Below, one piece after another: positions 2,917 through 61,855 of a stretch of 64,000 nucleotides of DNA. The notes beneath the pieces were generated by a model. That model was given only the letters and a program-made list of their open reading frames with translations. It did no database searches and had not been told where the DNA came from. The translations under genes and the position numbers were made by a program. Location: NCBI RefSeq assembly GCF_020148005.1, contig NZ_JAGXFD010000001.1, forward strand, positions 1,484,556 to 1,548,555. The letters run 5' to 3'. Every line of letters starts with the position of its first letter. Position 1 is the first letter of the stretch. The stretch is from Modicisalibacter tunisiensis. Lineage in GTDB: Bacteria > Pseudomonadota > Gammaproteobacteria > Pseudomonadales > Halomonadaceae.

Positions 2917-3783
<867 letters not shown>

Positions 3784-7042: not shown

Positions 7043-7096
7043 CTCAGGCTCGTCCGAAAAGCCGGCAGGCGCGGTCAGTTTTCGGTCGAGCCTGAG
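7043..7096. repeat. Long inverted repeat in the algC-dut gap (unit A)
   Basis: Arms CTCAGGCTCG-T-CCGAAAA (7043-7060) and TTTTCGG-T-CGAGCCTGAG (7079-7096) pair over 17 of 18 positions, leaving an 18-base loop. Part of the unit (AAAAGCCGGCAGGCGCGGTCAG) resembles the beginning of the larger element that follows at 7097, suggesting two related copies side by side. It looks like a REP-type structured repeat. Confidence 0.85.
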
Positions 7097-7232
7097 TGCT
7101 GCCTGAAAAGCCGACGAGCGAAGTCAGGACAAGGCAAAAATCGGTGAAAGAGCGGAGCTTACGGGGTGTAAATGAGCATCTTGAACCGATTTTCAACGTC
7201 GTATTGCCGAGCGTAGTCCTTTTCAGGCAGTG
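7097..7232 (-). repeat. Structured repeat directly downstream of dut (unit B)
   Basis: A 136-base imperfect palindrome begins one base after the dut stop on the minus strand. Outer arms CTGCCTGAAAAG (7099-7110) / CTTTTCAGGCAG (7219-7230) are perfect 12-mers; inner arms AAAATCGGT (7137-7145) / ACCGATTTT (7185-7193) are perfect 9-mers. Read on the minus strand, its core GTTCAAG-A-TGCTCATTTAC is nearly the same as the element after rho at 61753-61855. It could act as a 3'-UTR structure or terminator, or as a mobile repeat. Confidence 0.8.
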
Positions 7233-7233
7233 C

Positions 7234-7722
7234 TTAGTGGCGGCCGGAGTGGCCGAAGCCCCCTTCTCCGCGCTGGCTGGCGGCGAAGTCGTCGACGACC
7301 TCGATGTCGGCCTGCACCACCGGTACCAGCACGAACTGGGCCAGGCGTTCGCCGGGCTCGAGCACGAAGGGCTCGCGGCCGCGGTTCCAGACCGAGATCA
7401 TCAGCTCGCCCTGGTAGTCGGAATCGATCAGCCCGACCAGGTTGCCCAGCACGATGCCGTGCCTGTGGCCCAGGCCCGAGCGGGGCAGGATCATGCCGGC
7501 GAGCCCGGGGTCGGCGATGTGCACGGCCAGGCCGGTGCGCACCAGCTCGCAGTCGCCCGGCGCCAGCTCGAGCGGCGCGTCGAGCAGGACGCGCAGGTCC
7601 ATGCCGGCGCTGCCGGTGGTGGCGTAGTGCGGCAGCGGGTAGGCGTGGACGCGCTCGTCGAGCACCTTCACGGCCAGCGGCGGTCGGGTGGCTTGCGGGG
7701 TCGGGGAAAGGGTGTCGTTCAT
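7234..7722 (-). CDS. dut: dUTPase
   Basis: Dut hydrolyses dUTP to dUMP, keeping uracil out of DNA and feeding thymidylate synthesis. The 162-residue protein has the five trimeric dUTPase motifs in order: [22 protein letters not shown], the [10 protein letters not shown] strand and the C-terminal P-loop-like arm [10 protein letters not shown]. Its ATG overlaps the coaBC stop by four bases (ATGA), so it is translationally coupled to coaBC. The N-terminus is about ten residues longer than the E. coli enzyme. Confidence 0.97.
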
Positions 7723-9047
7723 CGGCAGTCCTGTCGGGACACGGAAGCGTTCGTGGAAGCGCGCTCGCGAAAGCGCGCGATGACCTGGTCGATCACGGCC
7801 TCGGCCAGCGCGCTCTTGGACTGGGCCGGCAGCTCGCGGCGTCCCTCGCCGCCGAGGCCATCCCGCCACAGTACCAGTGCGGCGTTGTCGTCGGCGCCGA
7901 AACCCAGCCCGGGGCGCGAGACATCATTGGCGACGATCATGTCGAGGTTCTTGCGGGCGAGCTTGTCGCGGGCATAGGCCTCGAGATCGCGGGTCTCGGC
8001 CGCAAAGCCCACCACGAAGGGGCGCGGGGTCTCGGCGGCGATCGTGGCGATGATGTCGGGATTCTTGACCAGCTCCAGGGTCAGGGTGTCGGTCTCGTCG
8101 GTCTTCTTGATCTTGTGCTCGGCGGGGCGGGCGGCACGGTAGTCGGCGACCGCCGCGCAGCCGATGAAGACGTCGCTGTCGGCGACGGCCTCGCGGACGG
8201 CGGCGAGCATCTCGTCGGCCGAGGTGACGTCGACGCGCTCGACCCCGGCGGGCGTCCCCAGCGCCACCGGGCCGCTGATCAGGCGCACACGGGCGCCGCG
8301 GGCGGCGGCGGCGGCGGCCAGCGCATAGCCCATCTTGCCCGAACTGTGGTTCGAGAGATAGCGCACCGGGTCGAGCGCCTCGCGGGTCGGGCCGGCGGTC
8401 AGGGTCAGGGTCAGGCCCGCGGCATCGCCGGTGACCGGCTCGTGAGTCGCGGCAGGCGGCGCGGCTTCGGGCGCCCTGTCGGACGCGGCATTGGGTGCCA
8501 TGAGAAGCTGCTCGACGATCGCCTCGGGCTCGAGCATGCGCCCGGCGCCGATGTCGCCGCAGGCCTGGTCGCCGCTGTCGGGACCCAGCAGGCGCCAGCC
8601 GTGGCCCTCGAGGCGGCGGGTATTGTCGCGGGTCGCCGGGTGTGCCCACATCGCCTGGTTCATCGCCGGAGCCAGCACGCACTCGGCGGTGGTGGCCAGG
8701 CACAGGGTGGTCAGGAGGTCATCGGCGTGGCCGTGGGCCAGGCGGGCCATCAGGTCGGCGGTGGCCGGGGCGATCAGCACCAGCTCGGCCCAGCGGGCCA
8801 GCTCGATGTGGCCCATGCCGGCTTCCGCCTCGGGGTCGAGCAGCGAGGTGCGCACGGCCTCGCCGGTCAGCGCCTGGAGGGTCAGCGGCGTGATGAAGGC
8901 CTGCGCGCCCTCGGTCATCACCACGCGCACCTCGGCGCCCGCCTTCTTGAGCAGGCGGGCGAGCATGGCGCTCTTGTAGGCGGCGATGCCGCCGCTGATG
9001 CCCAGCAGGATGCGCTTTCCGGCCAGGGGCGGCCCGAAACCCGACAT
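7719..9047 (-). CDS. coaBC: Bifunctional phosphopantothenoylcysteine decarboxylase / synthetase
   Basis: CoaBC carries out two steps of coenzyme A synthesis: joining cysteine to 4'-phosphopantothenate, then decarboxylation. The 442-residue protein has the FMN-dependent CoaC half first ([10 protein letters not shown] near 16-25, [18 protein letters not shown]), a linker of about 35 residues rich in Ala and Pro near 185-215, then the CoaB half ([21 protein letters not shown] split over the linker end, and a KIKK motif). The linker is longer and less conserved than either half. It shares a four-base overlap with dut. Confidence 0.97.
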
Positions 9048-37297: not shown

Positions 37298-37473
37298 CGC
37301 TTGACTGCAATCCGCCCGCCGGCGGAGCGCCGTCAGGCGGCAAGTCCATCAAATGCCTGAAAACACACATGTACCGTCACATGGTCCCGGGTGCCGAGGT
37401 CGACGCCGATGCGTGCCGCGGTCGGATCCATGGGGTACATGGAGGCCTAACCCGATTCATCAGGAGACATCCC
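37298..37473 (+). promoter_or_regulatory. rpsB 5' leader, candidate S2 autoregulatory region
   Basis: A leader of about 175 bases with no reading frame of its own, containing several GC-rich paired segments (for example GCCCGCCGGCGGAGC and GGTCGACGCC/ATGCGTGCCGCGGTCGG) and ending CAGGAGACATCCC before the ATG. In gammaproteobacteria S2 represses its own rpsB-tsf mRNA through the leader. The presence here of that control is inferred from position and length only. Confidence 0.4.
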
Positions 37474-60480: not shown

Positions 60481-61740
<1,260 letters not shown>

Positions 61741-61752
61741 TTCTGGCCTGCT

Positions 61753-61855
61753 GCGCTCGACGATACATCGTTGGAAAACAGTTCAAGCTGCTCATTTACT
61801 CAAGTAAACTCCGCGCTTTCGCTGTTTTCCGCCTTGTCTCGTCTTCGCTCGCAAC
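61753..61855 (+). repeat. Structured repeat directly downstream of rho (relative of the element after dut)
   Basis: Nested inverted repeats: GACGATAC (61759-61766) / GTCTCGTC (61836-61843, seven of eight paired), GGAAAACAG (61773-61781) / CTGTTTTCC (61822-61830, perfect) and an apical TTTACT-CA-AGTAAA (61795-61808). Its core GTTCAAG-C-TGCTCATTTAC, CTCCGC-G-CTTTC, GCCTTGTC and CTTCGCTCG match the minus-strand reading of the element at 7097-7232, in the same orientation relative to the gene before it. Confidence 0.8.

Follow-up and report, generated by a model that had tools for sequence, protein, structure and literature searches.

A mobile hairpin element with IS5-type ends and an ERIC-like core lies in sense at the stop codon of dut in Modicisalibacter tunisiensis

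Two structured sequences, one following dut on the minus strand and one following rho on the plus strand, lie in the 64,000-nucleotide stretch of M. tunisiensis DNA analysed here (hereafter the window), and they raise the question of what they are and why both sit just 3' of a stop codon in the direction of the upstream gene. An earlier note on this DNA had put forward two explanations: selection on structure, probably at the RNA level (stability of the 3' end, termination or a trans-acting product), or a repeat that prefers such sites. The two sequences turn out to be copies of one mobile element, a hairpin-forming MITE of about 143 bp. The features referred to below, delimited from the sequence, are these:

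7095..7233, minus strand: the dut copy, inclusive of its two outer inverted repeats
7234..7236, minus strand: dut stop codon TAA, adjoining the left end of the dut copy
7234..7869, minus strand: dut reading frame (longest ORF), the gene upstream of the dut copy
7219..7233, minus strand: left outer inverted repeat of the dut copy, GCACTGCCTGAAAAG, a class-A-like IS5-type end
7095..7110, minus strand: right outer inverted repeat of the dut copy, CTTTTCAGGCAGCACT
7131..7198, minus strand: conserved core of the dut copy, CGTT to GCCTT, a 22-bp hairpin with conserved internal loops
7168-7178, 7152-7157, 7128-7135 and 7115-7123, minus strand: the shared blocks in the dut copy, respectively TGCTCATTTAC, CTCCGC, GCCTTGTC and CTTCGCTCG
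61753..61855, plus strand: the rho copy, old, with eroded outer repeats
61769..61835, plus strand: conserved core of the rho copy
61138..61740, plus strand: 3' part of rho, the gene upstream of the rho copy, with its stop TGA at 61738-61740

The shared blocks do occur in the same order in the dut (minus) and rho (plus) copies, and the flanking stems, AAAATCGGT/ACCGATTTT and GGAAAACAG/CTGTTTTCC, differ in sequence yet pair as had been claimed. Folding agrees, with z-scores of -4.4 and -5.5 for the two copies and equally stable shuffles in 0/200 for either. The placement 3' of a stop, with the same orientation as the gene upstream, was likewise borne out, the dut TAA (7234-7236) adjoining its copy and the rho TGA (61738-61740) preceding the other. 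The span in which the dut structure was first noticed, 7097-7232, covers almost all of the element (7095-7233). Elsewhere in the window, positions 37346-37451 match the Rfam t44 RNA at 70.8 bits, the sole Rfam match in the window above the gathering score.

With the dut copy as query, BLAST finds 26 places in the own genome at E < 1e-4, well beyond what chance would give. A covariance model (R1), built from 86 distinct cores of three sources (the same genome, its relatives and named genomes scanned for a pattern), gives 36 own-genome matches at E ≤ 1. All but one of them reach E ≤ 3.4e-4, and only the dut and rho copies among the 36 fall within the window. Their cores score 82.5 bits (E 7.8e-21; contig coordinates 1491686-1491753) and 79 bits (E 9.9e-20), respectively. 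The search of this genome and its relatives that the earlier note had proposed as a check thus yielded further copies in number: 35 at E < 1e-3 in the own genome, and many in relatives. All 14 genomes of the genus (own counted) hold 11 to 52 copies each at E ≤ 1e-5. At wider range, matches at E ≤ 1e-4 occur in 104/274 evenly sampled genomes of the class Gammaproteobacteria and in 71/299 of the phylum, the own genome being counted in both. The exact central pattern is found, among the matches listed, in Halomonas, Salinicola, Chromohalobacter, Pseudomonas, Marinospirillum, Methylophaga, Vibrio, Nitrosomonadales and Mariprofundales, and also in Bacteroidetes such as Alistipes, Tannerella and Prevotellaceae; several of these hosts are metagenome bins, and chance may account for a few of the matches to the pattern. 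In a Rikenellaceae bin of 2.1 Mb the model has 49 matches at E ≤ 1. Seven plasmid records match the dut copy, and a search of phages with one copy from a relative matched nothing.

From the outside inwards, the target duplication is followed by an outer inverted repeat, which varies from group to group, and then by a 68-nt core of the order CGTT-stem-TC-stem-T-GC-TCA-stem-loop-stem-CTCC-GC-stem-TC-stem-GCCTT. The unpaired blocks (CGTT, TC, TCA, CTCC, TC and GCCTT) are near-constant, with 20/20 block bases in both the dut and the rho core; the stems vary freely and keep their pairing. Across the 86 sequences, 90.8% of 1890 cells are paired, double changes are seen in 17/22 pairs, and the doubly changed cells number 297 against a shuffled mean of 81. 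Constancy of the apical stem and of the flanking GC means little in the alignment gathered mostly by a fixed pattern (A1), since that pattern fixed both in most rows; in the alignment gathered by the model (A2), the apical stem varies, with compensation. Among 28 old or eroded copies, which were hand-picked and include some orthologs, every base of the unpaired blocks is kept in at least 21 copies, mostly in at least 24, and the stems are 94% Watson-Crick. The proposed selection on structure is upheld by these conserved unpaired blocks together with the maintained pairing.

The CTCC block is variable in one other family (f16), where CTGC is found in 16/60 copies, often near-identical ones; a sub-family with a changed loop may be spreading there (L451-L458 and other f16 loci). 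Some copies carry extra hairpins, recognised by eye, which flank the apical stem on either side at two constant positions in the core; these include copies after rho (L222, L223, L218) and in named contigs (L036, L050, L079). Two further loci, L106 (Vibrio mexicanus) and L140, have the same apical pattern with unclear outer CGTT/GCCTT blocks and lie about 15 nt 3' of a stop, in sense. We rejected a reading of the reverse strand as a ribosome site split by a hairpin (window 7131-7198, plus strand: GGAG-hairpin-ATGA as Shine-Dalgarno sequence and start), as the frames terminate at varying places (by eye).

Whether the pairing is selected in RNA is a separate matter. G-T against A-C cells number 26:35, 33:41 of 1875 (A2) and, in the old copies, 9:12, with none of the G-U excess to be expected if the pairing were kept in RNA. 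Because G-T is no commoner than A-C, the stem covariation alone does not show selection at the RNA level, and it may partly stem from homogenisation of the arms at the DNA level. What fits best is such homogenisation of the arms, with selection acting in addition on orientation and on those blocks that stay unpaired. The RNA part of the earlier proposal thus keeps an indirect argument, that from orientation, and has the 33 G-T to 41 A-C cells against it.

The ends of the element point to how it moves. Six copies picked for their recognisable ends measure 146-147 bp from end to end including the target repeats, three of them running from CTAG to CTAG, and the target duplications, read by eye, are CTAG, TGA, TAA, TCA, TTA and TCG. 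Empty sites were sought by comparing the joined flanks of own-genome copies with the genus genomes. One relative (G002) has a lone CTAG at the site of copy L155, the copy being absent, and lacks copy L152 in otherwise continuous sequence; at the L151 site it has 10 additional bases, and copies L153, L154 and L156 are present in it. In a second relative (G011) the L153 site is gapped. The class-A end, TAGGCTTTGTCTGAAAA, is found without mismatch on both sides of elements of about 916 bp that carry PF13340, that is, IS5-type transposase genes, in four places of one genome (G010). The class-B end, GAGGGTGTTTACAAAAT, bounds two elements of about 1.2 kb (L343 and L364) with 1-3 mismatches, and in G011 one core is found with both kinds of ends in the same genome. 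None of the three PF13340 loci of the own genome has these ends on both sides; one of them, L352, has a single class-A-like end nearby. Since the element shares its outer inverted repeats with IS5-type insertion sequences, it is most likely that IS5-type transposases move it in trans, duplicating a target of 3-4 bases such as CTAG, TGA or TAA. A further group of PF13340 insertion sequences, of about 790-970 bp, has ends like AAGAGTGCCTTTCAAAACCTTGA (L338, L342, L345, L352, L353, L363).

We then consider where the copies lie relative to genes, which were called with a simple coding-potential caller. The genus set comprises 120 copies, 36 from the own genome and 84 high-scoring ones from relatives, and is not a random sample; 108 are usable, two having no neighbour and 10 overlapping a called gene. 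A stop codon lies exactly at the element edge on the left, in sense, for 42 of the 108 and on the right, convergent and hence antisense, for 8 (p 1.2e-6); after deduplication the figures are 30 and 7 of 87. In tandem contexts the genus set has 41 sense and 18 antisense copies. Copies with intact ends adjoin a stop in 28/40 cases, 23 on the left and 5 on the right. Away from stops, the intact copies in tandem contexts do not favour sense, with 2 so oriented and 5 in antisense. The eroded copies in tandem contexts are in sense by 14:3, with the core mostly 17-47 nt 3' of the stop. As a control for availability, CTAG sites outside coding sequence were counted over 184 kb of own-genome DNA; 7/34 are stop codons, a measure valid for class-A ends only, other ends having other targets. 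Set against the 28/40 intact copies, this means that stops are over-used about threefold by CTAG-type ends and that the excess is in sense.

The bias recurs in f16, which has other ends. Here an independent set of 60 high-scoring copies from five genomes, again not a random sample, provides 55 usable cases, with 22 stops on the left and 3 on the right (p 1.6e-4) and a tandem count of 31 to 12. The left stops are TGA in 11, TAA in 10 and TAG in 1, while those of the genus are TAG in 24/38 under a stricter core pattern that leaves out 13/120 copies. The bias is weaker among the mixed named contigs whose copies have a clear outer repeat: a left sense stop in 21/57, a right one in 11 and both in 3, or 18 against 8 when counted exclusively (p 0.076). 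A repeat that prefers such sites, the second of the explanations first put forward, is therefore what the counts describe (42 against 8 of 108 and again 22 against 3 of 55), and the suggested check of orientation and distance to stops shows copies adjoining stops to be mainly in sense in the genus and in f16.

The copy after rho was followed through other genomes. The rho gene was found in 25/25 genomes of the own family, and the element lies directly 3' of its stop in 11 of these, spanning three genera, with stems that differ and still pair; some of the other genomes have flanking remnants after rho (by eye), and one (G021) is cut 60 nt past the rho stop and cannot be judged. Among other rho loci of the order, 1/5 carries the element (L237, in another family). 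The idea that rho is a general hot spot was abandoned, as 0/30 rho loci, taken from the 38 further genomes with a rho match, carry the element near rho. With 11/25 family genomes against 0/30 further loci, the rho copy looks like an old insertion that was kept and sometimes lost.

Taking together the mobility observed at empty sites, the ends that match insertion sequences, the conserved unpaired blocks, the sense placement at stops and the retention after rho, all of them computational observations, we favour with moderate confidence the following reading. The element is a non-autonomous MITE of about 143 bp with IS5-type ends and a hairpin core shared with ERIC, and its sense orientation would be kept through an effect on the 3' end of the upstream mRNA, where the hairpin would act once transcribed. 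A ribosome terminating at the adjoining stop might occupy the left arm of the outer stem and so release the right one, by analogy with the RNase E model for ERIC, which a 2007 review, in the passage concerned, presents as orientation-dependent and ribosome-coupled with an effect on the mRNA (PMC2229807). An element adjoining a stop in sense has the layout that such a ribosome-coupled device needs. The net effect on the mRNA could be processing, destabilisation or merely harmless. A bolder version, which we offer tentatively as a possibility, is that of a portable, translation-coupled module for mRNA 3' ends: one core, common to Pseudomonadota, Bacteroidota and ERIC, with interchangeable transposon ends, would land in stops and be kept best where the terminating ribosome remodels the hairpin. 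If so, a single regulatory part would have been delivered to bacterial mRNA 3' ends again and again.

The same ends, target duplications and empty sites would be expected of an ordinary functionless MITE with short stop-like targets and insertions tolerated mostly at stops, its arms kept complementary by quasi-palindrome template switching and not by selection. The symmetry of the G-T and A-C counts speaks for such an element, as do its patchiness among relatives and its apparent loss after rho in several of them (by eye). We nevertheless think this account unlikely: the sense bias of 42:8 and 22:3 at like targets is left unexplained, and TC/TC and TCA/CTCC, which homogenisation should pair, have neither become paired nor changed much, whether in old copies or in ERIC.

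The bias at stops could also arise at insertion, if the transposition complex itself read stops in an orientation-specific manner, for example via coupling to transcription or translation, with no benefit to the host. Intact, that is young, copies already stand at 23:5 at stops, and all three stops are used, mostly TAG in the genus (the 24/38 given above) and TGA or TAA in f16 (21/22). Intact copies elsewhere are unbiased, however, and the proposal comes without a mechanism; IS5-type DDE transposition is not known to recognise codons or orientation, which counts against it. We regard directed insertion as improbable. The stable fold and the sense position 3' of genes might argue for a terminator or for a small RNA acting in trans. 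Either is highly improbable given a position that is mobile and polymorphic, no promoter-like site in the dut or rho element region, no Rfam match in the two elements at the gathering score (a permissive search of nine loci gave six matches, all far below it) and no intrinsic terminator (GC stem followed by a T-run) within either element, terminator-like sites lying only outside, so that termination of the intrinsic kind is not borne out for these structures.

The reading favoured here, of a MITE whose sense orientation would be kept by an effect on mRNA, includes a relation to ERIC. When blocks defined on non-enterobacterial copies were scored on six ERICs, two from Klebsiella reached 20/20 and the four others 18/20, with the spacing of the family kept; of 400 shuffles per ERIC, none reached the score in five cases and one did in the sixth. 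Across 40 kb of E. coli sequence, no other site scores as well as the ERIC. On both strands of the window, 20/20 is reached only at the two real copies and 18/20 at one unrelated site (3664-3736), so 18/20 alone is modest evidence. A model of 11 ERICs only (R2), run on 224 kb, places the rho copy next after ERIC (E 0.062), then another own-genome copy (E 0.37) and fourth a non-copy (E 0.79); in the own-genome stretches it recovers 2/7 known copies at E ≤ 1 and misses the dut copy and four others. When 44 loci totalling 342 kb were searched with it, four matches reached E ≤ 1, the best at 0.0024; all four are on known copies, and the other 40 loci were missed. In the other direction, R1 scores one E. 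coli ERIC at 16.2 bits (E 0.0023 in 3.1 kb).

These weak scores, the low recovery by the ERIC-only model, the chance 18/20 site in the 64-kb window and the different ends of ERIC are what might be expected if two unrelated hairpin MITEs had converged. Against this stand the block scores, equalled by at most 1/400 shuffles for any ERIC, the E. coli ERIC as sole top site in 40 kb, and the placing of ERIC-only matches, 4/4 of them on known copies in the 44 loci and the best two after ERIC likewise in the own genome. Convergence therefore appears rather improbable, and ERIC and the MITE core very probably form one superfamily. The hosts extend far beyond Enterobacteriaceae and Vibrionaceae, the families given for ERIC in the pertinent passage of one paper (PMC10969869), and for this reason we file the element under an ERIC superfamily and not as ERIC itself. 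As regards the TA ends and TA target of ERIC, the CTAG copies contain TA in their target and the TGA, TCA and TCG duplications do not (by eye). Three of 11 ERICs (L399, L400, L404) begin 0-3 nt 3' of a stop in the same sense; the other eight do not.

MITEs, MITEs borne by IS5 and ERIC are already known. Within the literature searched, we recognised no description of the core outside enterobacteria and vibrios, and to that extent three things are new: that ERIC and elements far outside the enterobacteria have a core in common, that this core is coupled to different IS5-type ends, and that copies at stops are biased towards sense. How ERIC moves and persists is an old question: the review passages that treat it name no IS partner, and the 2007 review says in the relevant section that similarities of such repeats to insertion sequences were not sought or not found, RUP excepted (PMC2229807). 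A superfamily outside the enterobacteria with identifiable IS5-type partners makes both movement and persistence testable in common laboratory strains, and the pattern of stops and orientation in two families with different ends offers a quantitative handle on the action of such repeats on mRNA.

Among known systems, ERIC (also IRU or RU-1) resembles the element in the order and spacing of the unpaired blocks, in the long imperfect palindrome and in its dispersed intergenic sites, and differs from it in the stems, outer ends and target; the element has IS5-type partners and hosts that include, among the matches listed, Halomonas, Pseudomonas, Nitrosomonadales and Bacteroidetes. MITEPsy1 of Pseudomonas syringae, listed as an 'IS5?' MITE with a 4-nt CTAG or YTAA target duplication and with transposition shown, in the account given of it (PMC3189936), shares the MITE character, the putative IS5 link and the CTAG duplication; compared by that description, it is unlike the element in its length of 100 nt and its other ends. 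The R0/R2 repeats of P. fluorescens, which are described in the passage devoted to them as intergenic palindromes with inverted repeats equal to those of a resident insertion sequence (PMC2718517), are similar, by that description, in having IS-matching inverted repeats. REPs and BIMEs are likewise dispersed intergenic palindromes; REPs, in the definition given for them, are 20-40 bp long with GTAG/CGTC tags (PMC3733652), whereas the present element is about 147 bp long and has transposon ends and a target duplication.
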